Virus record (IMG/VR): IMGVR_UViG_3300022752_004854
Span: 1 to 28,144 of that record
DNA: 28,144 nt
Origin: a virus
Strand: one strand, 5' to 3'
The notes beneath the pieces were generated by a model, which worked only from the letters and a program-made list of their open reading frames with translations, ran no database searches and had not been told where the DNA came from. A program made the position numbers and the translations under genes. Positions 5,613 to 26,743 of the stretch are shown here, in pieces (positions within the stretch are counted from its first letter, which is position 1; every line of letters begins with the position of its first letter).

Positions 5613-6629
5613 ATGAATCTGATTCAGTCTACAATTCTGACATCGTTACCGGCTGGCCGTAAAAAGACACCATCTGGGTGGATGAGTTTCAATGCACCCT
5701 GTTGTGTGTACAATGGAGAATCTCCGGACAAAAGAAAACGTGGGGGAGTAATGACATCTGCGGATGGCACTCTGAGTTATCACTGTTTCAATTGTGGTTA
5801 CACAGCATCTTACGTGATTGGTCGTCGACTATCTGCCAAAATGAAAACACTCATGGGTTGGTTGGGCGTTGCTGACGACACAATTAAAAAATTAGCCATA
5901 GAAGCCATGCGTCATGAGGAAGCTGATATTAAGTATGAGAAAAAGAAATTCGTCTCATTTCAAAAAAAAGAATTGCCAAAGAACAGTTTTAAATTAGAAC
6001 ATTGGTTAGAAAAATACGTTGCAGAAGATCTTACAACCACACAGTATGAAAAAATAGATCAATTATTAAATTATTTAAAAAGTAGAGGTATAGCACCTGA
6101 GTGGTATGATTTTTTTTACTCTCCAGATCAAACTGCCGATTTCCATCGCAGAGTGATTGTGCCATTTTATTGGCATGGCGAAATAGTTGGATATACAGGA
6201 AGATTATTTGATACTCGAAATAAAGAGATAAAATATTATACCGAAACACAGCCAGGCTATGTGTTCAACCTGGATGCCCAGGACTGGCAAAGAAAGTTTG
6301 TGTTGGTAATGGAAGGACCATTTGATGCCATAACATTGGGCGGGGTGGCCATACTGGGATCAGAGATTAACGACACACAAAGAGAACTGATACAAGGATT
6401 GAACAGACAGGTAATTGTGGTCCCAGACAGGGATCAGCCAGGACAAAAACTCATAGATCAAGCCAAAGAGTTTGGCTGGAGCGTGGCATTTCCACAATGG
6501 CACGAATCGGTTGTAGACGTAGCAGAAGCTGTGTTAAAATATGGTAGATTGTTTACATTACAATCAATACTTAAATCTACAGAATCCACAGCATTAAAAA
6601 TAGATTTAAGAAGAAAGATTTATGGCTGA
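5613..6629 (+). CDS. DNA primase (T4 gp61/DnaG type), 338 aa
   Basis: Synthesises RNA primers for lagging-strand replication together with the replicative helicase encoded next to it. The N-terminus has a zinc-binding CHC2-type domain: Cys at 30-31 and HCFNC at 57-61. A linker leads to a TOPRIM domain with the catalytic Glu in VLVMEGPFDAI (about residue 234) and the acidic DxD in VVPDRDQPG (272-274). Length matches T4-like primases. The ATG follows the previous stop by a few bases with only a weak A/G-rich leader. The 3' end overlaps the helicase gene by 8 bp, so primase and helicase are translationally coupled. Confidence 0.92.
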   Translation: MNLIQSTILTSLPAGRKKTPSGWMSFNAPCCVYNGESPDKRKRGGVMTSADGTLSYHCFNCGYTASYVIGRRLSAKMKTLMGWLGVADDTIKKLAIEAMRHEEADIKYEKKKFVSFQKKELPKNSFKLEHWLEKYVAEDLTTTQYEKIDQLLNYLKSRGIAPEWYDFFYSPDQTADFHRRVIVPFYWHGEIVGYTGRLFDTRNKEIKYYTETQPGYVFNLDAQDWQRKFVLVMEGPFDAITLGGVAILGSEINDTQRELIQGLNRQVIVVPDRDQPGQKLIDQAKEFGWSVAFPQWHESVVDVAEAVLKYGRLFTLQSILKSTESTALKIDLRRKIYG

Positions 6630-8058
6630 TTACAGTTTTGATGTACAAAAATTATATTTAGAAATGCTGCTGGCAGATGCAGAGTCATTTGCAAGAGCAC
6701 AGAATATATTTGACAGCAACAGTTTTGATAGAAAATTACAACCTATTGCAAAATTTATTAAAGATTATGCAGAGCAATATAAAGTACTACCAGAAGTGGA
6801 GCAAGTTAATGCTAAACATGATATTAAATTAAAAGCAGCAAAAGATTTAGATCCATCACACTTTACATGGTTGTTGGATGAGTTTGAAACATTCTCTCGA
6901 CACAAGGCATTAGAAAAGGCCATATTAGAATCTGCAGATTTATTAGAGCATGGTGATTATGCTCCTGTGGAAGATAAGATTAAGGCAGCAGTTAACATTG
7001 GTTTAACTCGAGACATAGGTACAGATTATTTTGATGATCCTCGAGGCAGATTAGAAAGATTAAAAAATTCCAATGGACAGATCAGTACAGGATGGATTAA
7101 TATTGATAAGAAATTATTTGGTGGATTCAATCGTGGAGAGTTGAATATATTTGCAGGGGGTTCTGGAGCAGGTAAATCTTTATTCTTACAAAATTTAGCA
7201 GTTAACTGGGCCAGTGCAGGATTAAATTGTTGTTATATCAGTTTTGAATTGAGTGAGATGTTGGTAGCAATGAGATTGGATGCAATGATCACTAATATAC
7301 CCACAAGAAAGATATTCCCAGAAATTGACAACGTTGAAATGAAACTTAAAATGATTGCTAAAAAAGCAGGAAATTTACAAATCAAATATTTGCCATCAGG
7401 CAGCACAGTGTTAGATATTAAAACATACATAAAAGAATTAGAGCTTAAAACTAAAAAGAAAATAGATTGTATACTAATTGACTATCTAGATCTTATGATG
7501 CCAAAGAGTAAAAAAGTATCACCAGCAGATCTGTTTATCAAAGACAAATATGTGTCAGAAGAGTTAAGAAACTTGGCTGTAGAATCAAAAATGTTAATGG
7601 CCACAGCATCACAGTTAAACAGAGCATCTGTGGAAGAGATTGAATTTGATCACAGTCACATAGCAGGCGGATTGTCTAAAGTACAAACAGCAGACAACGT
7701 GTTTGGTATATTCACCAGCCGAGCAATGAAAGAGCGTGGCAGATATCAAGTGCAGTTTATGAAAACCAGAAGCAGCAGCGGTGTAGGACAAAAAGTGGAT
7801 TTAGAATTTGATGTGGATACACTGAGAATTAAAGATTTAATCGAAGAAGAAGGTCAGCATCAATTCAAAAAGCAAACTTCCACTGTGTATGATTCATTAA
7901 AACAAAAGAGCAAAATCGCAGGAGAAAGTACTCCCACAGATGCTAGACCGGAACCAGATCCTACTAGAGGTGATGAGGTTGGTAAAGTTAGAGCTACTGT
8001 GGAAGGCAGCAAATTAAGACAACTGCTCAACGATCTACACTCAGACGAAGAGCAATAA
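6622..8058 (+). CDS. Replicative DnaB-type DNA helicase (T4 gp41-like), 478 aa
   Basis: Hexameric 5'-3' helicase of the replication fork, partner of the primase. The N-terminal helical domain (1-130) resembles gp41/DnaB. The RecA-like core has Walker A GGSGAGKS at 179-186, an SFELSEMLVAMR motif (DnaB SLEMS-like), and Walker B CILIDYLDLM with Asp near 287. An SQLNR motif and a TRSSSGVG segment follow. The last 80 residues are polar and probably disordered. Overlaps the primase gene. It is the last gene of the replication block before a 284-bp non-coding interval. Confidence 0.93.
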   Translation: MADYSFDVQKLYLEMLLADAESFARAQNIFDSNSFDRKLQPIAKFIKDYAEQYKVLPEVEQVNAKHDIKLKAAKDLDPSHFTWLLDEFETFSRHKALEKAILESADLLEHGDYAPVEDKIKAAVNIGLTRDIGTDYFDDPRGRLERLKNSNGQISTGWINIDKKLFGGFNRGELNIFAGGSGAGKSLFLQNLAVNWASAGLNCCYISFELSEMLVAMRLDAMITNIPTRKIFPEIDNVEMKLKMIAKKAGNLQIKYLPSGSTVLDIKTYIKELELKTKKKIDCILIDYLDLMMPKSKKVSPADLFIKDKYVSEELRNLAVESKMLMATASQLNRASVEEIEFDHSHIAGGLSKVQTADNVFGIFTSRAMKERGRYQVQFMKTRSSSGVGQKVDLEFDVDTLRIKDLIEEEGQHQFKKQTSTVYDSLKQKSKIAGESTPTDARPEPDPTRGDEVGKVRATVEGSKLRQLLNDLHSDEEQ

Positions 8059-8290: not shown

Positions 8291-8342
8291 CACGCATCTT
8301 GCTTTGGAATATCCAAACAAGAAAACAAGGAGAAAAATAGTA

Positions 8343-9401
8343 ATGAACAAGAAAACTATCGCTTTAGGCGTGTTAGCAATTGCAGCAATTGTATTGTCTG
8401 TGATTTTTACTGGCACAGCTAGAGCTCAAACAACTGCTCCATCTGTTTCTATATACGGTAGACTGGATGCCGGTGCTCAGAGTTTTGACACTGGTTCAGA
8501 AACTGTGATTAGATCAAGTGAGGGAGCATACCTACCTAGCATATTGGGATTTCGAGGCAACTCGACAGACCTGGGTGGTGTAAAATTCAACTTCCAATTA
8601 GAAGGTGGATTGAAACCCAACACTGCTCAAATAGGTTCTACCACAACCACAGGAGCAATATTTGCTCGTGAAGCTTGGGTAGGAATCAGCGGCGCAGCTG
8701 GAGAAATTAGATTCGGTACAACCGATTTAACAGATGCCACTGAATTGGATACCATAGCTAGACAATTCGGCAAATTTGGTAACCATGCTGTGAACGGATC
8801 AGCTATCGAGATTGGAGAAGATGTGGGCAATGTAATGAAATACATTTCGCCAACCATCGGTGGATTCCAAGCACAATTGGGTTACTCAGGTAATGGAGTA
8901 TCGAACACCACTGACACCACTGCAGCTATCAAGGGTGGATCTTTGGTCTACAACAATGGTCCATTGAAAGCAGGTGTAGGATATGCAGCGAAAGATGGTG
9001 TTTCAGATGCAGCAAAAACCAATGCAAAGAGCATCGGTGGTCTTTATGACTTTGGAATAGCATCTGTGGGTGCCGCTTATGTTTACGGAGACAACTCCAC
9101 AACATCAACAGTGAAATCCACTGCTAACATGTACTCTGTGAAAGTGCCTCTAGACAAGAATGGCTTGTCTGCCTATGGTTTATACACCACTGCCAAAGAT
9201 GGTGCACAAACCACTGCCAATGAGGGCAAAGGTTACACCATCGGTTTAACCAAAGAGTTAGCACCAGGTGCAGTATTGTACGGTGCGTACAGTTGGGTTA
9301 ACAATGATGCAAACTCTGCCATGTATACGAACGGCATGTCAGCGCCAGCAGCAGGTAAAGATCCAAAACTTACTGTGGTTGGAGTATCATACCAGTTCTA
9401 A
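8343..9401 (+). CDS. Phage-encoded outer-membrane porin (betaproteobacterial general-porin type), 352 aa
   Basis: A trimeric-type beta-barrel porin that would be exported to the host outer membrane and let small solutes diffuse. The start is fixed by AAGGAG; an upstream in-frame ATG at 8304 is disfavoured. The signal peptide (residues 1-28) has a basic start, a long hydrophobic core and a cleavage site after ARA. The mature protein begins with SVSIYGRLDAG, the hallmark first strand of Neisseria/Burkholderia-type porins, followed by LGFRG, LGGVKFNFQLEGG and AREAWVGISG as in that family. It ends in YQF, the C-terminal Phe recognised by the BAM machinery. Single gene with its own strong promoter. 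Host-derived origin is likely, and it could alter permeability or surface receptors during infection. Confidence 0.9.
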   Translation: MNKKTIALGVLAIAAIVLSVIFTGTARAQTTAPSVSIYGRLDAGAQSFDTGSETVIRSSEGAYLPSILGFRGNSTDLGGVKFNFQLEGGLKPNTAQIGSTTTTGAIFAREAWVGISGAAGEIRFGTTDLTDATELDTIARQFGKFGNHAVNGSAIEIGEDVGNVMKYISPTIGGFQAQLGYSGNGVSNTTDTTAAIKGGSLVYNNGPLKAGVGYAAKDGVSDAAKTNAKSIGGLYDFGIASVGAAYVYGDNSTTSTVKSTANMYSVKVPLDKNGLSAYGLYTTAKDGAQTTANEGKGYTIGLTKELAPGAVLYGAYSWVNNDANSAMYTNGMSAPAAGKDPKLTVVGVSYQF

Positions 9402-10762: not shown

Positions 10763-10766
10763 ACAT

Positions 10767-12421: not shown

Positions 12422-12430
12422 GATTGAAAA

Positions 12431-12438
12431 TATTTATT
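12431..12438 (-). promoter_or_regulatory. Late-type promoter box AATAAATA (minus)
   Basis: Read on the minus strand, 9 nt before the ATG at 12421. Forms a divergent pair with the box at 12454. Confidence 0.5.
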
Positions 12439-12453
12439 GGCTACATTTTTGTC

Positions 12454-12461
12454 TGTAAATA
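12454..12461 (+). promoter_or_regulatory. Late-type promoter box TGTAAATA
   Basis: One mismatch from TATAAATA, 7 nt before the ATG at 12469, the same spacing as at 4043. Confidence 0.45.
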
Positions 12462-12468
12462 ACTGATA

Positions 12469-16445: not shown

Positions 16446-16450
16446 ATCAA

Positions 16451-16458
16451 TATTTAAT
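16451..16458 (-). promoter_or_regulatory. Late-type promoter box ATTAAATA (minus)
   Basis: Read on the minus strand, 5 nt before the ATG at 16445. Half of a divergent arrangement with the identical box at 16517. Confidence 0.4.
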
Positions 16459-16516
16459 GTGTTAAATTATTCAACAATTATTTGAGCCACGATTACCATA
16501 CCTTAAAACAATTAAA

Positions 16517-16524
16517 ATTAAATA
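16517..16524 (+). promoter_or_regulatory. Late-type promoter box ATTAAATA
   Basis: Two mismatches from TATAAATA, 9 nt before the ATG at 16534; the same 8-mer precedes 16445 and 19531. Confidence 0.4.
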
Positions 16525-16533
16525 TCTTTGTAT

Positions 16534-17280
16534 ATGCAAGAGCCTAAAACAAAAACATGGAAAGACTTTGATTCTCGAGAAGAATTTTTTCGTTATTTAG
16601 GTTATTATCATTATGATAAAAATCGTGATGAAACAGATTCTTATAAAATTTTAGGAAAAGTAACTCAAGATTTTAGCAAAGAAGTTATATGGTTAAAAGA
16701 AAATATAGAAACTATTAAAAAAAACTGGAATGATCAAAGTCCTGCACAAGTTGCTAAGAGTGTTAAAGAACTAGGACCAAAAGCACAAGCAGTAATGGCA
16801 GCACAATCTAATGATAAAAAACTTGCTGGATATAAAGATAATCAACCCATGTATAGAGTGAATAATGCTGATCCTAACAGTGTTTTTTATAAAGTTGCAG
16901 AAAAATTAGGACTTGAATATCCGCTTGCTCGTTGGCATATACAATTTCCTGGCGAAATGACTTTTTGGCACGTAGATATTTTTAATCCTGCTCATAAATT
17001 TTTACCTCCAATTGCACACAATCTTCCTGATGAAAAAATTGGTCACGATAATAATATACGTCGTATAATGGTGGCTCTAGAAGATTGGGATTGGGGACAA
17101 GTTGCTATGTTTGGCAAAACTTCTTACACAGGATGGACAGCAGGAGATATTGTTTACTGGCCATATGGTATGCCGCATGCTTTAGCTAATTGTGGATTAA
17201 CTCCTAGAATGAGTATCAGTATTACAGGAATGATTACTCCTTTGTTTAAAGAAAATTTAGAAAAAGTACAGAACTATTAA
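16534..17280 (+). CDS. Putative cupin/JmjC-like Fe(II) 2-oxoglutarate oxygenase, 248 aa
   Basis: The C-terminal half (residues 130-235) reads as a double-stranded beta-helix. RWHIQFPGEMTFWHVDIF holds H146-x-D148, then come RRIMVALEDWDWGQV, a GWTAGDIVYWPYGMPHA segment with H215 as the third iron ligand, and R225 (TPRMSIS) as a likely 2-oxoglutarate contact. The N-terminal part is helical and unassigned. A TTG two codons upstream is not needed; ATG 16534 is used. Codons and base composition are clearly more AT-rich than in the genes at 9.5-12 kb, suggesting separate acquisition together with the two following genes. Confidence 0.68.
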   Translation: MQEPKTKTWKDFDSREEFFRYLGYYHYDKNRDETDSYKILGKVTQDFSKEVIWLKENIETIKKNWNDQSPAQVAKSVKELGPKAQAVMAAQSNDKKLAGYKDNQPMYRVNNADPNSVFYKVAEKLGLEYPLARWHIQFPGEMTFWHVDIFNPAHKFLPPIAHNLPDEKIGHDNNIRRIMVALEDWDWGQVAMFGKTSYTGWTAGDIVYWPYGMPHALANCGLTPRMSISITGMITPLFKENLEKVQNY

Positions 17281-17291
17281 AAACTTTTTTA

Positions 17292-17582
17292 ATGTCTACA
17301 GATAATAATTTTATTATATTCAAAGCATTGAACGAATTTACAAAAAATATTCAAAATTATAAAAATAAAATTTTAATTTTAGGAATAAAAACAAAATTTA
17401 AAAATCTAAAAATTTTATATGCTCTAGAAAAACTTTCAGAACTTGAATCAAACTTTTATAAAAAATTTGCTTTATATTGTTCTATAGATAAAGAAATTGA
17501 CAAAGAAATGTTATTAGATACTATAATAGGAATTGAATTTCAATACCAAACTCTATTGTCTAAATCTTTTTTTAAATTATAA
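17292..17582 (+). CDS. Hypothetical helical protein, 96 aa
   Basis: A Lys/Asn/Ile/Leu-rich, probably all-helical small protein with no recognised domain, in the most AT-rich stretch of the window. No Shine-Dalgarno sequence precedes the ATG. It sits 11 bp after the oxygenase gene and 2 bp before the PP-loop gene on the same strand, so it is probably part of one operon and may be a carrier or adaptor for them. The extreme AT content makes a spurious frame possible, but context favours a gene. Confidence 0.55.
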   Translation: MSTDNNFIIFKALNEFTKNIQNYKNKILILGIKTKFKNLKILYALEKLSELESNFYKKFALYCSIDKEIDKEMLLDTIIGIEFQYQTLLSKSFFKL

Positions 17583-17584
17583 TC

Positions 17585-18727
17585 ATGAATCAAAGTATTC
17601 AATGGTTTAGCCATAAACATTTTGATCAAATTTTAAAATTACATGGTCAATCTGGCAAATCTTATAACTTTAACGGATATAAAGATTTACATAATCTATA
17701 TCTAATAAATTGTGTTTTTAGTTCTGCCCCATGGGGAGATATTATTGATAGAAGCGGAAAAACAAATTATCCTTTTAAAATTCATATAAGAAACAAATGG
17801 AAAAAACCAGATTCTAAATTAAAGAATATTGATCTAGAATCTGCTTGTAACTCTAGAGTTGAGGAAATTATTAATAAATTTTCTGCTCCATATAATCTTT
17901 ATTGGAGTGGAGGTATAGATAGTACTCTTATGGTTATAAGTTTTTTAAAAAGAGTGAATTCTAAAGATATAAACGTATGTTTAACAAATAGTAGTATTGA
18001 AGAAAATATATTTTTTTATGAAAATTTTATAAAAAAAAATAATCATTGTTTTGTAGATGTACGGAATAATTTTCCAAAAGGAACTAACATATCAGCTGAG
18101 TGCGGAGATACTATTTGGGCTGCTTTAGATCATAGTTTCTTTTTTGGAGACACTAAAGAATATGTTTTTAAAAATTGGCAAGAATATTTTGAGTTAAAAA
18201 ATAAAGATTCTAATTTTTTAGAATCTGCATTTAATTTTATGAAAAATGCAGAACGTCCTATTACAACTCTTCTAGAAGCAAGATGGTGGTTTTATTTTTT
18301 GTGTAAACATCAAAGCAAAGCCACTGCTTTATTAATTCAACATCATCATTTAAATATTGATTGGGTTAGTTTTTATGAAAGCAGCGATATTGAAACATGG
18401 AGTTGGTTTAATATAGAAAATATTATTAAAAAAAATAATTGGTTAACTTATAAATTTCCAGCTAAAGAAATAATTTACAATTTTGATAAAAATTTAGATT
18501 ATTATAACAATAAAACAAAAGGCTATAGTTTAGGCTTACATAATCCTAATAATTATTTTAATTTAGACTTATTCCACCGACCTCTGTTTATTACAGAAAA
18601 TTTAGAAAAACCGATGTTATCTACAGAACCTTTTTTTTCAAAAGAGGCTTATAAACAAGAATTTTATGAAAAATACAAACATTTGTTTGTGGTGGAGGAT
18701 AGCGGGATCGAACCGCTGACCTCCTGA
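17585..18727 (+). CDS. PP-loop ATP-pyrophosphatase (asparagine-synthetase-like), C-terminus running into a tRNA gene
   Basis: The motif LYWSGGIDSTLM (about residues 104-115) is the SGGxDS PP-loop that binds ATP and adenylates a substrate carboxyl or carbonyl, as in asparagine synthetase and related amide-forming enzymes. There is no N-terminal glutaminase Cys, so any nitrogen donor would be ammonia or an amine. Downstream His/Trp-rich segments are unassigned. The last 12 codons, reading SGIEPLTS at the end, are encoded by the antisense of the tRNA-Ala gene (18690-18765), and the stop lies in its anticodon arm. The original C-terminus was therefore probably lost or replaced. Very AT-rich. Confidence 0.75.
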   Translation: MNQSIQWFSHKHFDQILKLHGQSGKSYNFNGYKDLHNLYLINCVFSSAPWGDIIDRSGKTNYPFKIHIRNKWKKPDSKLKNIDLESACNSRVEEIINKFSAPYNLYWSGGIDSTLMVISFLKRVNSKDINVCLTNSSIEENIFFYENFIKKNNHCFVDVRNNFPKGTNISAECGDTIWAALDHSFFFGDTKEYVFKNWQEYFELKNKDSNFLESAFNFMKNAERPITTLLEARWWFYFLCKHQSKATALLIQHHHLNIDWVSFYESSDIETWSWFNIENIIKKNNWLTYKFPAKEIIYNFDKNLDYYNNKTKGYSLGLHNPNNYFNLDLFHRPLFITENLEKPMLSTEPFFSKEAYKQEFYEKYKHLFVVEDSGIEPLTS

Positions 18728-18765
18728 ATGCAAATCAGGCGCTCTACCAGCTGAGCTAATCCCCC
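18690..18765 (-). tRNA. tRNA-Ala(TGC)
   Basis: A 76-nt cloverleaf: acceptor GGGGGAT with ATCCTCC including the G3-U70 pair that identifies tRNA-Ala, D arm GCTC/GAGC, anticodon arm CCTGA/TCAGG with loop TTTGCAT (anticodon TGC), variable AGGTC, T arm AGCGG/CCGCT with canonical TTCGATC loop, discriminator A and encoded CCA. Close to bacterial tRNA-Ala. Reads GCA and other GCN codons. Lies 9 nt after tRNA-Thr. Confidence 0.96.
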
Positions 18766-18774
18766 ACTTTATTC

Positions 18775-18848
18775 TGGTGCCCCCACCCTGTACTGACCAG
18801 GGATCTAATCCTTACCATGGATTTGTTATGCCATTTAACTATAGGGGC
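18775..18848 (-). tRNA. tRNA-Thr(GGT) with a non-canonical T loop
   Basis: A 74-nt cloverleaf: acceptor GCCCCTA/TGGGGGC (G1-C72 and C2-G71 as in tRNA-Thr), D arm GTTA/TAAC, anticodon arm AATCC/GGATT with loop ATGGTAA (anticodon GGT), 4-nt variable region, T stem CCCTG/CAGGG, discriminator A, encoded CCA. The T loop is GTCAGTA in place of TTCRANN, losing T54 and A58. The 5' end abuts the stop codon of the iron permease gene. Confidence 0.85.
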
Positions 18849-19442
18849 CTAAAACCCGTGCTCCAATAATTCATGGATGCCCGTATATAGAAAGTATACA
18901 GCAAGAACGGAAAATAGCCAACGGCTATAAAAGAATATTTTTCGTACTGGCAATTTTTTAATTTGGTAGTCTGCAACCTTAATGGATATTACCAAAACCA
19001 CCAAACCCACCAAAATGCCCAAAACAATCAAACTGAGATCGGGGTCTTTGACGTATATGCCTGTTAGGAACAGCAACACTTCTATGCCTTCTCTAAAGAT
19101 TATAAAGAACGCTGCTGTACCCAATGCTAATATGCTGGTTTTAGGTAGGTCTTTTACATGCTGTGCAGCACCATGACAAAACCATGCTACCCAACCCAAT
19201 AAAGCACCAGTTAATATGGCGATTAAAGCTTCAAAGCGCTCTAAATTTACGTCAGATCCCAACCAAGCTATAGTTGAAGCACCCAGCAATAGAGTGGCTA
19301 AAAAACCCACTATAATGCTGTACCATATGGCTCGTGTTTGTGCAGAATTACCACTAGTTGTAGCCAGTGCTAGGACCACAATTAACCACGTTTCGAATCC
19401 TTCTCGAAATATTACGAATGCAGAACTTAATAATGATGTCAT
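18849..19442 (-). CDS. FTR1-family iron permease, 197 aa
   Basis: An integral inner-membrane permease of the FTR1/EfeU family, which transports iron. Both hallmark REGxE motifs are present: REGFE (13-17) in the first helix and REGIE (117-121) in the fourth, where the Glu residues bind iron. About six transmembrane helices can be drawn; the family usually has seven and about 270 aa, so this is a shortened form lacking the EfeO/EfeB partners in this window. AAAAAGG lies 5 nt before the ATG, and a late-type AATAAATA box lies at 19463-19470. The stop codon touches the first base of tRNA-Thr, so the gene and both tRNAs probably share a transcript. Confidence 0.88.
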   Translation of the reverse strand: MTSLLSSAFVIFREGFETWLIVVLALATTSGNSAQTRAIWYSIIVGFLATLLLGASTIAWLGSDVNLERFEALIAILTGALLGWVAWFCHGAAQHVKDLPKTSILALGTAAFFIIFREGIEVLLFLTGIYVKDPDLSLIVLGILVGLVVLVISIKVADYQIKKLPVRKIFFYSRWLFSVLAVYFLYTGIHELLEHGF

Positions 19443-19462
19443 CTAACCTTTTTAATTTTCAA

Positions 19463-19470
19463 TATTTATT
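19463..19470 (-). promoter_or_regulatory. Late-type promoter box AATAAATA (minus)
   Basis: Read on the minus strand, 20 nt before the FTR1 ATG, with AAAAAGG in between: late-promoter geometry with a short leader and ribosome binding site. Confidence 0.5.
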
Positions 19471-19516
19471 GTATGGTATTTTCGTGGTTGCGTCAATTGG
19501 CTTTTCATAATAATAT

Positions 19517-19524
19517 ATTAAATA
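19517..19524 (+). promoter_or_regulatory. Late-type promoter box ATTAAATA
   Basis: 6 nt before the lipoprotein ATG at 19531. A weaker sigma70-like pair (TTGCGT 19488, TAATAT 19511, 17-nt spacer) overlaps. Confidence 0.35.
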
Positions 19525-19530
19525 GCATCT

Positions 19531-19677
19531 ATGAAAAATATATTAATTGCTTTATCATTATTTTTAATAATTGGTTGTGCTTCTACGACAGATCAGCCTA
19601 AAGCAGATGCTCCAAAGAACTCTTTAGAAACTCTTGGCTCAGCACTAGGACAAGCACTAAAAAATTTAAGATTCTAA
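19531..19677 (+). CDS. Small lipoprotein, 48 aa (possible outer-membrane spanin)
   Basis: A classic lipoprotein signal: MK, a hydrophobic stretch, and the lipobox LIIGC with the lipidated Cys at residue 16. The 32-residue mature part is Asp/Lys/Pro-containing, then helical (LETLGSALGQALKNL). Too small for an enzyme. Phage o-spanins of the Rz1 type are short lipoproteins, but an adjacent inner-membrane spanin is not seen, so this remains a suggestion; it could instead be an entericidin-like or superinfection-exclusion lipoprotein. Stops overlap the convergent gene by 4 bp. Confidence 0.6.
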   Translation: MKNILIALSLFLIIGCASTTDQPKADAPKNSLETLGSALGQALKNLRF

Positions 19678-19865
19678 TTTTTACTGTTCCATTTATCCAG
19701 CATGCCTTGCAATGAGCTGCCGTGTAATTCTGCAGGATCTTGCTCTACTCCGTGCTTCATGCCGTAACCAGAACTGCGATTGCTGCGATGATGTAGTTTA
19801 GAATCGTATGTGGAATTGTTATTAGGGTTTTTGTTTTTTTTGAATTTTTTTCTTTTATTAAACAT
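19674..19865 (-). CDS. Hypothetical small protein, 63 aa
   Basis: A basic, Asn/Ser/His-rich N-terminal half (NKRKKFKKNKNPNNN), probably disordered, leads to a possibly conserved C-terminal stretch (GMKHGVEQDPAELHGSSL). No family recognised. The ATG lies 1 bp after the stop of the methyltransferase gene on the same strand, preceded by GGAAAGAAA, so it is co-transcribed and probably translated. Basic tails of this kind suggest nucleic-acid or virion packaging contact, which is speculative. Confidence 0.6.
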   Translation of the reverse strand: MFNKRKKFKKNKNPNNNSTYDSKLHHRSNRSSGYGMKHGVEQDPAELHGSSLQGMLDKWNSKN

Positions 19866-19866
19866 T

Positions 19867-20520
19867 TTATTTTCTTTCCAATCCTGTCCATGTACCTAAC
19901 TGTTTAATTACATACTGAGTGCATGGGTAGTTAATTTCTGTTGTTTTTATTTTTAATTTTTCTGCATCTTTTATTATGTATTGGTCTACTTCTGATATTT
20001 GTCCTCTTGCCCATATCTCTGTCCATGCTCCTCGATACTTTGGCTTGAATCCTTGCTCATCTAAAAATCTATTTGGTTTAGTGTAATCGTTGCTATTAAA
20101 GTCATCTAAAATTATTAATGCATCATAGTTCATATGTGGCAAAATAAATCTACAATCTATTTCACAGGTGGGTATTTTATCATCTCCATCAATGAGAATC
20201 ACTCCAAGATTACTGGGTATTTCTTCTAATTTTAATTGCCAGCTTGGTTTACGAATATGTTTGACTGCATGTTTGGGCCATAACCTCCACATGCTTTGAT
20301 ACAATAGATCTTGTTCTTGAGGATCAAGTAAAGTTATCGGCGAGGTAGGTTGTGCTTCTGCAAATATAGAGGCACTGTGGCCGTTATGACAGCCAATTTC
20401 AAAATAACTCACTGGGGGTAAGTTTTTATACAAATGCCATAGGCATAGAGCACCTTCTAGATCTCTCCAGCCTTCTTTGGCTAAGGTAAAATATTTTGTT
20501 TCTGTAAAAGACTGATACAT
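19867..20520 (-). CDS. Class I SAM-dependent methyltransferase-like protein, 217 aa
   Basis: A Rossmann methyltransferase fold is indicated by motif I YFEIGCHNGHSAS (ExGxxxG that binds SAM), an acidic LLDP after the next strand, the ILIDGDD segment and LIILDDFNS, the pattern of the Methyltransf_24/cephalosporin-hydroxylase group. These act on sugars or small molecules; the target here is unknown. It has a near-consensus minus-strand promoter (20536-20563) overlapping the promoter of the divergent MIP18 gene. Followed at 1 bp by the 63-aa gene. Confidence 0.8.
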   Translation of the reverse strand: MYQSFTETKYFTLAKEGWRDLEGALCLWHLYKNLPPVSYFEIGCHNGHSASIFAEAQPTSPITLLDPQEQDLLYQSMWRLWPKHAVKHIRKPSWQLKLEEIPSNLGVILIDGDDKIPTCEIDCRFILPHMNYDALIILDDFNSNDYTKPNRFLDEQGFKPKYRGAWTEIWARGQISEVDQYIIKDAEKLKIKTTEINYPCTQYVIKQLGTWTGLERK

Positions 20521-20535
20521 TAGTAATTTAGTAAT

Positions 20536-20563
20536 ATTGTAACATAGGTTGTGACGCTGTCAA
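20536..20563 (-). promoter_or_regulatory. Sigma70-type promoter of the methyltransferase gene (minus)
   Basis: TTGACA (20563-20558) and TACAAT (20541-20536), 16-nt spacer, with a TG one base before the -10 (extended -10). Start near 20529, leaving a leader of about 9 nt. Confidence 0.7.
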
Positions 20564-20577
20564 AGTCATGTTATACT
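20549..20577 (+). promoter_or_regulatory. Sigma70-type promoter of the MIP18/SufT-like gene
   Basis: TTGTGA (20549-20554), 17-nt spacer, TATACT (20572-20577) with a TG extended -10. The ATG at 20583 is 5 nt after the -10, so the mRNA would be leaderless. Overlaps the divergent promoter. Confidence 0.65.
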
Positions 20578-20582
20578 GTAGC

Positions 20583-20951
20583 ATGAATGATATTACCAAA
20601 GATGTTAGTCAAACTCTCGCAGATGTGATTGATCATGAAGCGACTCGATTGCAATACATTCATACTATAAAAGACAAATTAAGGACTGTGTTTGATCCTG
20701 AATTGCCCATCAATATTTACGATCTAGGATTAATATATGATATCAAAGTGACAGAGCAAGTGGAATGTTACATATTACACACGCTGACATCAGCATTTTG
20801 TCCTGCAGCAGATATCATACCTGTGGATATACAGAATGCTGTGCAAAGCATACCCAACATTGCAAAATGTTCAGTACGTATTACCATGTCCCCTCAGTGG
20901 AGTCCGCAAAGTCTAGATCCAGAGATACGACAACTAATACTGGGCTGGTAG
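20583..20951 (+). CDS. MIP18/DUF59 (SufT/PaaD-like) Fe-S assembly protein, 122 aa
   Basis: Family hallmarks are clear: VFDPELPINIYDLGLIYDI (compare DPEIPxNIxDLGLVY), a central strand pair, LTSAFCPAADIIP with the conserved Cys (compare TxxxCP), and a C-terminal SPQWSPQSLDPEIRQLIL (compare PPWxxxxIsxexrxxL). Relatives help mature Fe-S proteins, as SufT in bacteria, or act in the phenylacetate oxygenase complex (PaaD). ATG 20583 is chosen over 20568, which lies in the -10 region. In this phage a role in supplying clusters to the five radical SAM enzymes is an attractive inference. Confidence 0.85.
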   Translation: MNDITKDVSQTLADVIDHEATRLQYIHTIKDKLRTVFDPELPINIYDLGLIYDIKVTEQVECYILHTLTSAFCPAADIIPVDIQNAVQSIPNIAKCSVRITMSPQWSPQSLDPEIRQLILGW

Positions 20952-20955
20952 TACC

Positions 20956-20963
20956 TATAAATA
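20956..20963 (+). promoter_or_regulatory. T4-type late promoter box, exact TATAAATA
   Basis: Exact late consensus, followed by a leader containing AAGGAG (20979-20984) and the ATG at 20991; the clearest late-promoter geometry in the window. Confidence 0.65.
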
Positions 20964-20990
20964 TTCATACAACTAAACAAGGAGAACTCC

Positions 20991-21101
20991 ATGTTAACAA
21001 TAGCGTTCATTCTAGGTTTTGCTGCAGGTTGGTATATCAACGAGAAAGTTGAAAACCTTGGCGAAAAGTTAAATCCGATTAATTGGTTCAAGAAAAAATA
21101 A
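20991..21101 (+). CDS. Micro membrane protein, 36 aa
   Basis: Begins 6 nt after a strong AAGGAG and follows an exact late-promoter box, so expression is well supported. One membrane helix (residues 2-15, LTIAFILGFAAGWY) is followed by a polar amphipathic segment and an FKKK end. Function unknown; size and topology fit small phage membrane regulators or virion-associated peptides. Followed by a strong hairpin. Confidence 0.65.
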   Translation: MLTIAFILGFAAGWYINEKVENLGEKLNPINWFKKK

Positions 21102-21113
21102 AAATCACTTTAC

Positions 21114-21139
21114 TATCGGGGGAATTATTTCTCCCGATA
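21114..21139. terminator. Hairpin between convergent micro-genes, probable bidirectional terminator
   Basis: TATCGGGGGAA pairs with TTCTCCCGATA over 11 bp (one G-T) around a TTAT loop. T-rich stretches lie a few bases away on both strands but are not immediate. Confidence 0.5.
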
Positions 21140-21149
21140 CTTCTTCAAA

Positions 21150-21260
21150 TTAAAATTTAATTTTTTTATCGATGGTCTTTTTTTGTCCTAGTTTGTATCC
21201 TAGTCCAAATGCCATGGCTACGAAAGCTGCTACTAATAATGTGTGCCAAAAGTAAAACAT
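21150..21260 (-). CDS. Micro membrane protein, 36 aa (minus)
   Basis: A single helix (residues 2-22, FYFWHTLLVAAFVAMAFGLGY) with a basic tail (KKTIDKKIKF). The ATG lies 5 nt after a CATAAATA late-type box at 21266-21273. It mirrors the 36-aa gene across the hairpin: same length, same helix-then-lysine design, opposite strand. No family recognised. Confidence 0.5.
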   Translation of the reverse strand: MFYFWHTLLVAAFVAMAFGLGYKLGQKKTIDKKIKF

Positions 21261-21265
21261 AAAAC

Positions 21266-21273
21266 TATTTATG
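21266..21273 (-). promoter_or_regulatory. Late-type promoter box CATAAATA (minus)
   Basis: One mismatch from TATAAATA, 5 nt before the ATG at 21260. Confidence 0.45.
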
Positions 21274-21282
21274 AAAAAACAA

Positions 21283-22338
21283 TTAGAATTTATAACGAAT
21301 TGAGCCTATGATTTGACTGCCGTAATCTGTGTGTGTGCCTGTGTATACGGAAGTTTTTTCTTTATCGTGCAGATACAAACCAAACTCCAATCCCTTCCTT
21401 TTGTCAGGTCTTTTATCTTGATCATCCTGTGTCATTATTTGATAAACGAGCCCATAGTAATTGCCTGTGTAACCTAGGTCGTCGTGCTCGGTTCTGTGTG
21501 CTGTGAGATAAAGATTATCATTAACACTGTAAAGTCCACCTATATCAAATCTTTTTTTACCTGACAATCCTGTGTCTTTGTCGTCCCATAATTCAATTCC
21601 CCATATGGCTGGAATGCCCCAACGATGCAGTGCTCCTCCAATAGAGAGACCTTCTTGGTGTTTGCTGGTTGTGTAGTATCCTGCTGTTGCTGGAGAATCA
21701 ATTCTCATATAAGATATATCAAACAATCCCAACACTCCCACAGTGGCAGATGAGTAATAGGTATTGGTTAGATTGTCAAATCCTAACACCACACCATATG
21801 GCATGTCTTTCTTTAAACGATAGGAATCAAATTCAAACTCGTTGTCCCATTGGAATCCGCCAATTGCCAGCACTGCTTTTTCTCCATGATCTATTCTGCT
21901 GTTGGGCTGAGTGATAATGATGGGTGCTCCAATTTTGGGAGTCTTTGCAAATCCTAATCTCTGAGCATCTGTTTCTCCCAGATACAATCTATAATAATCG
22001 TTGCCCAATCCTATCTGTTTATTAACCAGTGAGTTGTCTTTGGTATGGTCGGCATCGTAATATGAGTCGTATAGGCTCGATGCTCCAATCCAATTCACAT
22101 AAGGATTGTTTAAGGTTTGTTGTATGCCAATCTGTATTTCTGCTCGAGAATCAAAACCGTTGTCATAGGTTCTGTCATCATAGTAGGCCTCGATATTGCC
22201 GTGAATGAATAGTCCTCTAGGCAAATCAATTTTGTTAGATTCTAAGTTTTGAATTCTTTTTTCTAGGTCTGCTATTTTCTTCTCATCAGCTGAAGCCATC
22301 GCAGACAACAACAACATTACCAATATTATTTTTTTCAT
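21283..22338 (-). CDS. Second outer-membrane porin-like beta-barrel, 351 aa
   Basis: The signal peptide is MKKIILVMLLLSAMASA, with cleavage likely after ASA; the longer frame from 22392 is rejected because it would put 18 extra residues before the signal. The mature N-terminus holds a short coiled coil (EKKIADLEKRIQNLES), as in trimeric porins with periplasmic coils, then alternating aromatic-polar strands (GNIEAYYDDRTYD, AEIQIGIQQ) and a final strand SIRYKF with the C-terminal Phe used by BAM. Different from the porin at 8343. It starts 7 bp after the bilin-reductase stop, so it is the distal gene of that operon. A pore or binding barrel in the host outer membrane is the likely role. Confidence 0.78.
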   Translation of the reverse strand: MKKIILVMLLLSAMASADEKKIADLEKRIQNLESNKIDLPRGLFIHGNIEAYYDDRTYDNGFDSRAEIQIGIQQTLNNPYVNWIGASSLYDSYYDADHTKDNSLVNKQIGLGNDYYRLYLGETDAQRLGFAKTPKIGAPIIITQPNSRIDHGEKAVLAIGGFQWDNEFEFDSYRLKKDMPYGVVLGFDNLTNTYYSSATVGVLGLFDISYMRIDSPATAGYYTTSKHQEGLSIGGALHRWGIPAIWGIELWDDKDTGLSGKKRFDIGGLYSVNDNLYLTAHRTEHDDLGYTGNYYGLVYQIMTQDDQDKRPDKRKGLEFGLYLHDKEKTSVYTGTHTDYGSQIIGSIRYKF

Positions 22339-22345
22339 TAATGTA

Positions 22346-23029
22346 TTATACTTTAGGAAATAGATTATCCGCAAGGAATACTTTGACATCATCTTCTGGT
22401 AATCCCAAAGACAGCATGGCTCGAGGCACGTGTGGATTTAGTTGCTGTTGCTCACAATAATAATTCTGTCCTTGTTTTATTTCTTCCAATCGATCGTCTC
22501 CGTTGTAATTTGGTAATTGTTCTAGGTAGTATTTTAAAGTATATTCTGCCATACCACAGATCTGATCCAACTCTTTTTCTTCTTGTATATTGCCTGCTGC
22601 TATCATACCATCGCTGAATATGTTTTTGGCCCACTGGGGCAATTCTCTTTCTTTATTAGGTTTATAAGATTTGGTATTGTCGATAAACCATTGAGTCAGA
22701 GGATGACCTTTTCTTTTCAATGAAGATATATCGTGAAATGCTCCTGTTACTTTATTTTGTCCTGACACAATATCAAACCCATAGATCGGTCCACTGTTAT
22801 GCAACACAGGAAACATGCACACGTGTATGATCCATAGTTTTTTACTTTCTCTAGCATCTACCACTTCCACATGAGCTCTCCTCAAACTATCGCTTCTCCA
22901 AGTACGATTAGTCCAACCATATTTGGTATTATTAAATCTTTCCATGCTGGGTTCGTGATATTCTTCGCAATTTTGATTTAAAATATTAACAATATTATCT
23001 TTACACTGTATAAGTTTTTTCCAAATCAT
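22346..23029 (-). CDS. Ferredoxin-dependent bilin reductase (PcyA/PcyX-like), 227 aa
   Basis: Reduces biliverdin IX-alpha to a phycobilin with electrons from ferredoxin. Landmarks of the family follow the order in Synechocystis PcyA: RRAHVEV with Glu55 (equivalent to E76), WIIHVCMFP with His69 (H88), YGFDIVSG with Asp86 (D105), then LPQWAKNIFS, and QGQNYYCEQQQLN near the C-terminus. All three PcyA proton-transfer residues are kept, whereas PebS has Asn in place of the His. PcyX, known from oceanic virus metagenomes, is a PcyA relative making phycoerythrobilin; motif reading cannot tell the product. Heads an operon with the porin at 21283; a late-like TATAAGTA lies at 23039-23046. Confidence 0.88.
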   Translation of the reverse strand: MIWKKLIQCKDNIVNILNQNCEEYHEPSMERFNNTKYGWTNRTWRSDSLRRAHVEVVDARESKKLWIIHVCMFPVLHNSGPIYGFDIVSGQNKVTGAFHDISSLKRKGHPLTQWFIDNTKSYKPNKERELPQWAKNIFSDGMIAAGNIQEEKELDQICGMAEYTLKYYLEQLPNYNGDDRLEEIKQGQNYYCEQQQLNPHVPRAMLSLGLPEDDVKVFLADNLFPKV

Positions 23030-23093
23030 GATTTAAAATACTTATATGAAAAAATTTTATGATAAAAATTCAAAAGACTAAGTATCATTAAAT

Positions 23094-23101
23094 TATAAAC
23101 A
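23094..23101 (+). promoter_or_regulatory. Late-type promoter box TATAAACA
   Basis: One mismatch from TATAAATA, 17 nt before the MFS ATG, in an 89-bp AT-rich divergent region that shows no other clear element. Confidence 0.35.
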
Positions 23102-23118
23102 AACAAATTTTATATATT

Positions 23119-24381
23119 ATGATCAAAGATAAAAATATTATCCGAGTGTCTTTAGCCAGTGGATTTGGTACTCTATTTGAGTGGTATGATTTTTTAATCT
23201 ATGCTGTGGCTACCGGTTTGGTTTTTAAACATCTATTCTTTCCTGCTACCGATCCTGCTATAGCAATATTGCTGTCCATGTTAACCTTTGGTGTGGGCTA
23301 TGTGGTTCGACCACTTGGTGGTATAATTTTTGGTTATTTTGGAGATAGAGTGGGTCGCAAATCCATGCTGATGCTCACACTCATCCTCATGGGTATCAGT
23401 ACATTTGCTATTGGTTTGTTGCCTACTTACAACGAAGTGGGTGTATGGGCACCCATCATGTTGGTTGCTCTACGTATCTTGCAAGGTTTAAGTTTTGGTG
23501 GTGAGTGGGCTGGTGGCAGTATTATGATTTTAGAGCATGCTCCTTCGAAACATCGAGGATTATTTGCCAGTCTAGTTCAAATGGGATATCCAATTGGATT
23601 TCTTTTAGCTTCTGGAGTATTTTTATTAACTATAAAATTGTCTGGAGATCAATTTTTAGAATGGGCGTGGAGAGTACCATTTTTGCTTTCTATTGTATTA
23701 GTCGTAATTGGTGTTATTATTCGATCTCGTATTGCAGAAACACCAGTTTTCCAACAACTACAAGAAAAGAAAAAACTATTACGAGTACCTTTCATGCATG
23801 TTTTTAAACATGAGAAAAAACCTTTGTTTTTAGGAATTGGTATCAAAACATCTGAGATTGCTTGGGGTTATCTGCCATCGGTGTTCTTTCCTCTTTGGGC
23901 TGTAAACAATCTTGGAGTAACTCGAGGCGATGTAATGGATTATATATTCATTGCTATGTTTATATCTATTATTGCAATACCTGCGACAGCATATCTTTCT
24001 GATCGCATAGGTAGAAGAAAAATTTTCTTATACACAGCGGCCGCAATGACCTTACTTGCTATACCTATATGGTATTCTATGCAGGCAGGACAGTTTGGTT
24101 TGCCTGTGGTTATAGGATTAGTTGCAGGAGCCATAATGTTATCTCCTCTCGCAGCTCTATTGCCTGAGTCTTTTTCAGCAGCTAGTCGCTACTCGGGTGC
24201 AAGTTTGGCTAATCAAATTGCAGCAGCTTTAGGCGGGGGTGTGGTGCCTGCTGTGGCAAGTTGGATTGCTATTTCAACAGGTAGTCTAGTAGGAGTAGGC
24301 ATATTAATGGCTGTGTTAAGTTTAATTACATTTTTATGTGCTGCTATGAGCTCAGAAACTCGAGATAAATCGTTAATATAA
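23119..24381 (+). CDS. MFS transporter, metabolite:H+ symporter (MHS) family, 420 aa
   Basis: A full-length 12-helix inner-membrane transporter. The MHS signature is plain: SGFGTLFEWYDFLIYA in helix 1, FGVGYVVRPLGG and FGYFGDRVGRK between helices 2 and 3, RILQGLSFGGEWAGG in helix 4 and LSDRIGRRK between helices 8 and 9. Relatives such as ProP, KgtP and ShiA import osmolytes, organic acids or shikimate with protons. Substrate not predictable here. All motifs are intact, so it is probably functional. It lies between the bilin reductase and heme oxygenase on the opposite strand, ending 4 bp from the heme oxygenase stop. Confidence 0.9.
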   Translation: MIKDKNIIRVSLASGFGTLFEWYDFLIYAVATGLVFKHLFFPATDPAIAILLSMLTFGVGYVVRPLGGIIFGYFGDRVGRKSMLMLTLILMGISTFAIGLLPTYNEVGVWAPIMLVALRILQGLSFGGEWAGGSIMILEHAPSKHRGLFASLVQMGYPIGFLLASGVFLLTIKLSGDQFLEWAWRVPFLLSIVLVVIGVIIRSRIAETPVFQQLQEKKKLLRVPFMHVFKHEKKPLFLGIGIKTSEIAWGYLPSVFFPLWAVNNLGVTRGDVMDYIFIAMFISIIAIPATAYLSDRIGRRKIFLYTAAAMTLLAIPIWYSMQAGQFGLPVVIGLVAGAIMLSPLAALLPESFSAASRYSGASLANQIAAALGGGVVPAVASWIAISTGSLVGVGILMAVLSLITFLCAAMSSETRDKSLI

Positions 24382-24385
24382 AAAA

Positions 24386-24955
24386 TTAATAATTTTTTTC
24401 TAAAAGATACATTTCTTTGAATAATTCTGTAGCATATTCGAAACAAATTTTTGCTTCAGCAACTACATCATCGGTATCTGTTTTCATGTAACTGTTAATT
24501 GTTTCTCTAATTACTTGTATTAATTCTTTAGTATTATCAAAATCTAAATAGGTATTAGCGCCAGGTGTTCTTGTTTTTATCATTTGCCCTCCATAGAGAT
24601 CTCCTAGATATCTTACGTATACATGAGCAAACAATTTTGCTGGTTCTCTCCTGATATTATCGATGTGTTCTACATATCTTTTTGTGCTGTTTGTTATCTC
24701 TGGTTGAGGGGTTATACGCACCCAAAGATCTTGACAATCATATGCTAATTTTTCTGCTCTTGCTATATTGGGTAGACGATCTAATAATCCTTGATACTGT
24801 GACCATTTTTCTAGAGCACCATAACAGTGTGATAGATTATAAAGAAATGTGGCATATAGTCTTGGGTGTATTTCTCCAGACATTAATATTTTTACAAACT
24901 CTTGTTGCTCGGCTCGGCGATGCTGTTCTTTAGTTGCTTCTCTTATGTCTATCAT
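24386..24955 (-). CDS. Heme oxygenase, 189 aa
   Basis: Opens the heme ring to biliverdin IX-alpha, CO and Fe(II) using ferredoxin electrons and O2. The proximal heme ligand is His12 in TKEQHRRAEQ, and the distal-helix signature YLGDLYGGQM (116-125) has the Gly residues over the heme. Length fits phage and bacterial HO1. The frame reaches 24976, but ATG 24955 overlaps the preceding stop (ATGA) and aligns with the usual N-terminus. It supplies the substrate for the bilin reductase at 22346, though the two genes lie in separate minus-strand units split by the MFS gene. Confidence 0.92.
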   Translation of the reverse strand: MIDIREATKEQHRRAEQQEFVKILMSGEIHPRLYATFLYNLSHCYGALEKWSQYQGLLDRLPNIARAEKLAYDCQDLWVRITPQPEITNSTKRYVEHIDNIRREPAKLFAHVYVRYLGDLYGGQMIKTRTPGANTYLDFDNTKELIQVIRETINSYMKTDTDDVVAEAKICFEYATELFKEMYLLEKNY

Positions 24956-25422
24956 ATATTCTTTTCGTATATCCAACCCATGCCTTGTGTTTCTGTTTCA
25001 AATATCCACTGGTATACCGGCCAAGTAAATTCTAAATACCATTCACCATTAAAACCTAAGTAGTTAGAATTAATTATAGGATCCACCGATAGATTGTTTT
25101 CTTTTGCATATTGATAGTAACCTTTTGTATATGTTGGAGAATATTTGCTCTGTAACATGAAACTGGAATAATGAAATCCTTCTACCCCGATACTTTTAAC
25201 TATTATGGCTTTGTCTTTGTCTCCTATAGTATCTCGTTCAGTTTTATTAAGAAAAAATACACTTAATCGATTGGTGTCTTTTGCTGGCAAAGCCCAATTA
25301 AATTTTTTAATCTCTCCTAGATAATCTTCGAATAAAATCGATTGATTAAATTCTATTTTAATTTTAGGTTTCTCTGCCCAAAATTTTGGTTCTAATTCTA
25401 GTGTTAGTTTAACATCACGCAT
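24952..25422 (-). CDS. Hypothetical beta-rich protein coupled to radical SAM and heme oxygenase, 156 aa
   Basis: No sure family. Alternating strands (VKLTLELEP, PKIKIEFNQSILF), a central HYSSFM segment and a W/Y-rich C-terminal part (GEWYLEFTWPVYQWIF) suggest a beta-sandwich, perhaps a carbohydrate-binding-like module. Upstream ATGs at 25461 and 25443 exist, but ATG 25422 has AAGGA about 9 nt before it and the shortest overlap with the radical SAM gene (8 bp). Its stop overlaps the heme oxygenase start. The tight coupling suggests joint expression of radical SAM, this protein and heme oxygenase. Confidence 0.65.
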   Translation of the reverse strand: MRDVKLTLELEPKFWAEKPKIKIEFNQSILFEDYLGEIKKFNWALPAKDTNRLSVFFLNKTERDTIGDKDKAIIVKSIGVEGFHYSSFMLQSKYSPTYTKGYYQYAKENNLSVDPIINSNYLGFNGEWYLEFTWPVYQWIFETETQGMGWIYEKNI

Positions 25423-26743
25423 TGGTGTATCCTTCGTACCCATATGCTGATAAAAATTCATATAGTTCTGTAGAGTAATCTTTTAGATTTATTTTTTTAA
25501 ATTTGTCCCATTGATTTAATTTTTCTGCACAAGTTTTTCTTAATTGCTCTGCATCTATAGGTGCTGGTACTTTTGCTAATCCAATAATAGATTCACATTC
25601 GTTTCTTATACTAATGTCTATTTTATGAGGATCTTTTTGATTATTAAATTCTTTATTTTTTGTTTTGGGTAATGTGTCGAGTACTGCAGATACTTCGTTT
25701 ATTATTTTTTGTTTAAGATTGTTTGGTAGTAGTTTGGCCTGCTGCCACAACGGATTAACCAATATACTATTATCTATAGGTATGCCCAACTCATAACACC
25801 ATTTAATTAAATTTGCATAAGTTGGTAGGCTTAATATGCTTGGTACAGTTCTTATGGCTAGAGACATATTATCTGGTTTTTCTTTTTTTAACTTTTTTAT
25901 ATTGGACATTACATTTTTTATTTTTCCTTTTTGTCTAATATAATCTCCAATTGGTTCTACGCTCTCTATGCTGATACCTATTTCGGTTCTTTTAAATTTT
26001 GTTAGTCTATCAAAATATTTTGTATAATCTACACTACCATTAATTGTAAAACTAAAGTTAATATTCTTTGCCATATCTTTTTCTACCAAATAGTTTAAAA
26101 GAAAATCAAATTTAGGTATGAATGCTACTTCGCCTCCTATTATGTGAATTACTCGAATAGAATCTGGGTGTCTTTCTAGGTACCCTATAAAGTTTGCCCA
26201 ACCCGCAGGATCATCTGTCCAATGATTAAAATTAGTATTTGGTTCTATCCATCCGAGCTCTTGCCATTCTTTTTGTAATGGTGTACTAAACCATGGATTA
26301 CACATTCTGCAAGCAAAATTGCAAGTGTCTCCTATATTGATATGTAGGCTGTGTACTGTGGTTTCTGTTAGTCCTTGATTATTTTCACTGTATTGAAAAC
26401 GAAATAAATTTGGACTCTGCTGATAGCTTCTTTCAAATGAATCTAAAAATACCAAAGACTTCATATTTTCTTTTCTTCGAGGACTCTCATATCCTAGCTC
26501 GTCTTTGAGCTGACAGGCTCGACACATAGAATCGGGTATCTCTCCTAGTTTTCTCAGTCTCGCTTCTCGCATACGAGGACTATTCCAATACTCTTCAATG
26601 GACATCTTCTTAATGTTCCATAATTGTCCTAAGGGAGTGCCTAGTATCTTATCGTTTTGACAACCACAAAGATCGAAACTGCCATCATGATTGATGTTTA
26701 ACTCAAACCATGGAATGTTACAGAATATTTTGCTATTAGGCAT
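25415..26743 (-). CDS. N-terminal-twitch radical SAM protein, 442 aa
   Basis: The largest of the five radical SAM proteins. Cluster motif C141-C145-C148 (TCNFACRMC); IIGGEVAFIP is the GGE motif. The N-terminal auxiliary Fe-S domain has C8 in FCNIPWFELNI, then C26 and C28 after HDGSFDL, then C74 and C77 (MCRAC), the same order as at 13032 and 14726. The C-terminal 100 residues are extra and unassigned. The ATG is 7 nt after an AATAAATA late-type box embedded in the end of clpP. First gene of a coupled trio with the 156-aa protein and heme oxygenase. Confidence 0.87.
   Translation of the reverse strand: MPNSKIFCNIPWFELNINHDGSFDLCGCQNDKILGTPLGQLWNIKKMSIEEYWNSPRMREARLRKLGEIPDSMCRACQLKDELGYESPRRKENMKSLVFLDSFERSYQQSPNLFRFQYSENNQGLTETTVHSLHINIGDTCNFACRMCNPWFSTPLQKEWQELGWIEPNTNFNHWTDDPAGWANFIGYLERHPDSIRVIHIIGGEVAFIPKFDFLLNYLVEKDMAKNINFSFTINGSVDYTKYFDRLTKFKRTEIGISIESVEPIGDYIRQKGKIKNVMSNIKKLKKEKPDNMSLAIRTVPSILSLPTYANLIKWCYELGIPIDNSILVNPLWQQAKLLPNNLKQKIINEVSAVLDTLPKTKNKEFNNQKDPHKIDISIRNECESIIGLAKVPAPIDAEQLRKTCAEKLNQWDKFKKINLKDYSTELYEFLSAYGYEGYTNA

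Follow-up and report, generated by a model that had tools for sequence, protein, structure and literature searches.

Gene content of the window

The window, that is, the whole stretch of 28,144 nt analyzed here (IMG/VR virus record IMGVR_UViG_3300022752_004854, positions 1 to 28,144), carries on its minus strand genes for a heme oxygenase (HO), a ferredoxin-dependent bilin reductase (FDBR) and an outer-membrane porin (OMP), with a transporter gene on the opposite strand between the first two. These genes and those relevant to their context are the following:

24952..25461, minus strand: uncharacterised, immediately 5' of HO; no Pfam match
24386..24955, minus strand: HO; Pfam PF01126, 3.1e-25; human HO-2, 8.7e-16
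23119..24381, plus strand: MFS metabolite:H+ symporter, between HO and reductase; TIGR00883, 4.5e-118, below the curated cut-off
22346..23029, minus strand: FDBR of the PcyX clade; Pfam Fe_bilin_red, 1.6e-17
21283..22338, minus strand: OMP, third cassette gene; begins 8 nt past the stop codon of the reductase
20568..20951, plus strand: SufT/PaaD-like Fe-S assembly protein; Pfam PF01883, 6.8e-14; TIGR02945, 2e-26; context
18849..19442, minus strand: FTR1-type iron permease; Pfam PF03239, 8.2e-13; context, outside the cassette
8304..9401, plus strand: Porin_4-type general porin (porin1), a second outer-membrane porin; Pfam PF13609, 1.4e-34; context
6622..8058, plus strand: DnaB-like replicative helicase; PHROG 19, 1.2e-72; marks the phage lineage

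The initial annotation had noted an HO and a PcyA/PcyX-like reductase, and both genes are indeed intact, supported by Pfam and under purifying selection. The HO match to PF01126 is above the cut-off, and the protein has the proximal His and the distal GDxxGGQ motif (here GDLYGGQ); the mechanical open reading frame extends to a TTG at 24976, the likely start being the ATG at 24955. Relative to the sister contig G001 (locus L001; IMGVR_UViG_3300009068_004104), dN/dS is 0.097 for the HO and 0.054 for the FDBR, indicating that both genes are maintained. Besides the window, the HO was found in only 3 of the 50 dnaB-related contigs that were searched, which could be taken as a sign that the two genes are decaying hitch-hikers without function, but this is extremely improbable in view of the low dN/dS values (0.05–0.10), the intact frames and the conservation of all the catalytic residues.

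The DnaB-like helicase is 50% identical to that of the jumbo phage PA5oct and 47% to that of Atu_ph07. The nearest relatives of this helicase, of the primase and of the UvsW-like helicase are found in jumbo phages (47–50%, 35–37% and 50–55% identity, respectively) and not in the pelagimyophage Mosig. The jumbo relatives have sizes of 287 kb (PA5oct), 490 kb (Atu_ph07) and 469 kb (Phosso), and the window phage may itself be jumbo, judging from its sequence relatives; the longest dnaB-related contig encountered was 122 kb, and no structural genes were recognised within the 28-kb window. Directly after dnaB lies the Porin_4 gene, which is 41–86% identical or replaced among sister phages in which dnaB is ~80–99% identical, suggesting a frequent swapping of phage-borne porins.

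The initial annotation listed porins, an iron permease (FTR1) and radical SAM genes as neighbors; all of these were confirmed, and the window contains no photosynthesis gene. FTR1, with two REXXE motifs (REGFE and REGIE), has no relatives among 50,697 phage records and is found at 57–88% identity in several sister IMG/VR contigs. Nevertheless, sister phages in which neither HO nor FDBR was found also have FTR1 and radical SAM genes, so that closeness of these genes to the cassette is in itself not very informative, and the iron theme of the FTR1, SufT and radical SAM neighborhood may be coincidental.

Other features of the region differ among the sister contigs. The uncharacterised gene upstream of HO is 73% identical in L028 and 32% in L001. 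Five radical SAM/SPASM-type genes, one of them with a twitch domain (NF033640), lie within 17 kb (9710–26743), and the copies differ between sister contigs; their interpretation as a defence system was discarded, the matches to pVip being weak only. A tRNA-Ala and tRNA-Thr pair adjoins FTR1 (18690–18848) and is kept in L001 and L028, although the tRNA-Ala anticodon is GGC in these two sisters and TGC in the window.

A PcyX-clade bilin reductase with PcyA-type residues

The FDBR matches the PcyX structure 5OWG over its whole length (phmmer, 6.3e-97), is ~60% identical to it and to the reductase of the Pelagibacter phage Mosig, and is 93% identical to its G001 sister. A tree of 102 FDBRs places the sequences from the window and G001 within the phage PcyX clade (98/90 support), and, in a tree with further phage sequences, the core of this clade, with the window sequence in it, reaches 100/98; the cyanobacterial/cyanophage PcyA cluster is not joined by the window FDBR, and the separating branches have 100/99 support. 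The best fold match of the AF2 model (pLDDT 94) is also 5OWG (TM 0.96, rmsd 1.2 Å), and the identity in the structural alignment is only 22–23% to PcyA, compared with about 60–65% to PEB-forming PcyX. An origin of the reductase from cyanophage PcyA or PebS is ruled out by trees and structure. The check that the initial annotation had proposed, the placement of the reductase in an FDBR tree, sets it on the PcyX side and not with cyanophage PcyA, with no linkage to photosynthesis genes. Relatives of this family are encoded on more than 590 IMG/VR stretches.

The active site gives a different picture from the phylogeny. The window FDBR and its G001 sister carry the tetrad Glu55-Ile67-His69-Asp86 (EIHD), which is the PcyA set and corresponds to PcyA Glu76, Ile86, His88 and Asp105, whereas Asp-Met-His-Asp (DMHD) is found in all 86 other PcyX-clade sequences compared. 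The position of Asp55, described as the 'PcyX specific catalytic residue' (PMC11480375), is occupied by Glu55 (GAA) in both contigs, and the protein is classed here as an FDBR of the PcyX clade rather than as a PcyX enzyme. PcyX_EBK42635 (5OWG), the marine phage reductase that forms PEB, resembles the window protein in fold, clade and the catalytic His69-Asp86 pair, but has Asp55 and Met67. Conversely, cyanobacterial and cyanophage PcyA share the Glu-Ile-His-Asp set, but are distant in the tree, and the window protein differs from them in a short PcyX-like insert after position 55 and in Phe218, also as in PcyX, at the position aligned with PcyA Tyr238, the partner of Glu76. The Ile67 codons of the two contigs differ (ATC/ATA) in a region with ~16% DNA divergence, which indicates that the EIHD state is not a sequencing error.

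The EIHD state is also present in ten full-length phage FDBRs from other contigs, which are 40–48% identical to the window protein and form a separate clade. A single Glu55 group was not rejected in the AU test (p 0.29), so that either the conservation or the regain of EIHD in the window pair is compatible with the data. A further candidate, L296, matched the Glu55 DNA pattern, yet has Asp-Met in the protein alignment. Twelve further positions that are nearly fixed in PcyX are changed in the window pair, and PcyA-like residues were more frequent near the active site (4/5 vs 1/9; Fisher p 0.02), a post hoc comparison that is only suggestive of convergence.

The occurrence of the PcyA tetrad within the PcyX clade means that the product may be PEB or PCB, the former predicted by descent and the latter by the active site. 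A reductase functionally equivalent to PcyA, which would carry out the 18-vinyl reduction to phycocyanobilin (PCB) in spite of its PcyX-clade descent, is a tentative reading whose odds fall a little short of even. It is favored by the tetrad shared with cyanobacterial PcyA, in which Glu76, a PcyA-specific residue that PcyX lacks, is required to reduce the 18-vinyl group (PMC10151467) and Ile86 is conserved and important (PMC9800206), and by the reductase of phage CB_2, without Asp55, which makes PCB (PMC11480375). The much higher identity to PEB-forming PcyX than to PcyA, and the PcyX-like Phe218 at the Tyr238 position, point in the opposite direction. Moreover, this Asp-to-Glu swap in PcyX, in the work of Ledermann et al. 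in 2018, reportedly gave no conversion to PcyA. The Glu55/Ile67 reductase pair constitutes a natural experiment on PEB versus PCB regiospecificity, and, if PCB is indeed made, it would represent a natural intermediate revealing the residues that switch an FDBR between both products.

The adjoining porin and the probable mobility of the cassette

The OMP has a signal peptide, an N-terminal coiled coil and a C-terminal Phe, but no Pfam match and no sequence relative in the PDB. The AF2 model (pLDDT 77, residues 8–351), in which the modelled and aligned sequence begins 7 residues inside the signal peptide, shows a general-porin barrel of about 16 strands, with OmpU (2.3e-10), Omp32 and the R. blastica porin as the best Foldseek matches (TM 0.57–0.68), and a channel with the 16-strand fold of general porins is predicted from this model. 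The OMP is similar to these trimeric general porins in the barrel, the signal peptide and the C-terminal Phe, but differs in the N-terminal coiled coil and in a sequence unlike any Pfam or PDB family. A TonB heme receptor was ruled out by the general-porin fold.

The relationship between porin and reductase extends beyond the window. Among the best 80 IMG/VR OMP loci, 78 had enough upstream sequence to be assessed, and the reductase was also present in 50 of them, directly upstream of the OMP and on the same strand in nearly all 50. In the remaining 28 loci no reductase was found within 4 kb, indicating that the OMP also has an independent existence, and those inspected were often near ribonucleotide reductase or cold-shock genes. 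The OMP is almost restricted to phages, with two bacterial species in the genome scan (a SAR324 MAG and the unclassified MAG SI054_bin67); the bacterial relatives are located at L195 9884–11053 and L194 1524–2624, the L194 copy lying near SufS/SufE-like genes.

It is a serious, though somewhat disfavored, possibility that the porin is functionally outside the heme pathway, as a phage porin replacing host porins and often co-inserted at a tolerant site, with superinfection exclusion or nutrient uptake as its purpose. The loci without reductase and their gene neighbors, and the general-porin fold devoid of heme-receptor features, are in agreement with this, as is the tendency of these phages to gather transporters, illustrated by porin1 and by a TctC-TctB-TctA-like tripartite tricarboxylate transporter set in G001 (L025 5340–8272), named by eye from sequence. 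Against this, the OMP gene comes straight after the reductase gene in almost every one of the 50 other loci, and this linkage persists across two or more unrelated phage backbones.

The cassette is found at unrelated genomic sites. In T4-like, pelagiphage-type contigs the order is HO-FDBR-OMP-neck protein, and in those without OMP the neck gene usually follows directly after the FDBR. In the window lineage, the cassette is placed between clpP/radical SAM and SufT/FTR1, a position unrelated to the T4-like site, and the same stretch lacks the cassette in the sister phage L111. In addition, the OMP of the T4-like contig L186 shares 83–86% identity with that of the window, against only 63% for the FDBR, a discrepancy that suggests recombination between types of phage. 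The gene set shared by T4-like phages and by a lineage with jumbo-like replication genes, the empty site in L111 and the mismatch in L186 lead us to read HO-FDBR-OMP, by sequence comparison, as a probable mobile three-gene module across unrelated phage backbones.

In the window, HO and FDBR have the strand and order of the hemO-pcyX cassette but are split by the MFS gene, which is equally placed, with 86% identity, in G084/G087 (L028/L062); this shared arrangement makes an assembly chimera unlikely. The MFS gene is absent from G001 (L001), where HO and FDBR share an overlap of ~35 nt, and it is best read as the later insertion of a nutrient symporter on the opposite strand. A bilin exporter was considered and rejected, since the highest-ranking models for the protein were those of metabolite:H+ and shikimate symporters, with scores under the respective cut-offs.

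Variations in the surroundings of HO were observed in other phages. The order HSP20-ClpS-HO-FDBR occurs in L253 (257–5029) and L287 (5875–7872), one of these contigs being 322 kb long, and in L253 the OMP follows after one extra gene. In two T4-like contigs (L234 1683–2717 and L264 1696–2727), a gene for a multi-pass membrane protein of 343–344 aa is located directly upstream of HO.

Role of the cassette and comparison with known phages

The preferred interpretation, with a probability of about 0.55, is that of a mobile heme-catabolism cassette (HO-reductase-porin) serving a phage whose host is Gram-negative and apparently not photosynthetic. As expected from the protein families, the HO would open host heme to biliverdin, Fe2+ and CO, and the reductase would take electrons from host ferredoxin to convert biliverdin into a phycobilin (PEB as PcyX, or PCB as PcyA). 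The likely benefit would be the recycling of heme iron late in infection together with the clearance of biliverdin, which would otherwise accumulate and slow the HO. The porin probably makes the outer membrane more permeable, so that nutrients can enter or the bilin can leave, or else takes the place of a porin of the host. The main role would then be to free iron from heme while clearing biliverdin; a part in light harvesting is unlikely. The linkage to the porin and the movement of the complete cassette between unrelated phage backbones provide a concrete third component and favor membrane transport or iron economy over light. Regarding the host, the plasmid-borne relatives of porin1 are all from Betaproteobacteria, the best of them with at most 28% identity, which weakly hints at a betaproteobacterial host type.

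The use of the bilin for light sensing, by loading a host phytochrome or a bilin-binding globin and altering host behavior during infection, is quite improbable. A functional phytochrome forms in E. coli with the PCB that a related phage reductase makes, and in Bradyrhizobium ORS278 the hemO-pcyA-alaS genes adjoin bphP (PMC11480375). The host of the window phage may have a phytochrome or some other protein that binds bilins. However, the suggestion in the initial annotation of a phytochrome chromophore finds no support on the phage side, since no phytochrome (PHY) or phycobilisome-family protein was above the cut-off in 22 related phage records; one sub-threshold phycobilisome match, inside a 2199-aa frame, was disregarded. 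A bolder version of the heme-catabolism reading, speculative and on balance unlikely, is that a PcyX-descended reductase with a kept or regained PcyA site produces PCB in a host that is not photosynthetic, its gene being the central one of a mobile cassette whose porin would pass the heme-derived bilin or iron across the outer membrane.

The pair of HO and PcyX in phages of non-cyanobacterial hosts has already been published (PMC11480375; Mosig MT647606), so the headline of the initial annotation is known in kind. Cassettes of the hemO-pcyX and hemO-pcyA/X-alaS types are known from marine and freshwater phages (PMC11480375, Nat Commun 2024), the marine ones being assigned to pelagiphages, and the purpose of genes for bilin synthesis in phages of non-photosynthetic bacteria has been called enigmatic, with a discussion of an iron role and no mention of an outer-membrane protein in the text (PMC11480375). 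Three features were absent from the initial annotation, namely the MFS between the genes, the PcyA-type active site and the porin linkage at 8 nt. To our knowledge, the occurrence of a PcyA-type active site within the PcyX clade is new, as are the porin-linked mobile cassette, found in a lineage with jumbo-like replication genes, and the opposite-strand MFS splitting it in the window and G084/G087.

With respect to individual phages, the freshwater CB_2 hemO-pcyA-alaS cassette (PMC11480375), compared here through its published description, resembles the window in its large-phage context and in an HO adjoining an FDBR without Asp55, but this FDBR is reported as midway between PcyX and PcyA, and no alaS was seen in the window. 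Mosig EXVC030M (MT647606.1), isolated on Pelagibacter HTCC1062, has adjoining HO and PcyX genes and is similar to the window in its HO (50% identical), its PcyX-clade reductase (60%) and a non-cyanobacterial host. It differs in a T4-like pelagimyophage backbone, with the cassette directly upstream of the neck genes and no OMP gene, and in an Asp55-Met67 reductase. A further link of Mosig to iron and heme is found close upstream of HO-PcyX (L016 10599–14454), in the form of a ferrochelatase and four 2OG-Fe(II) oxygenase genes.
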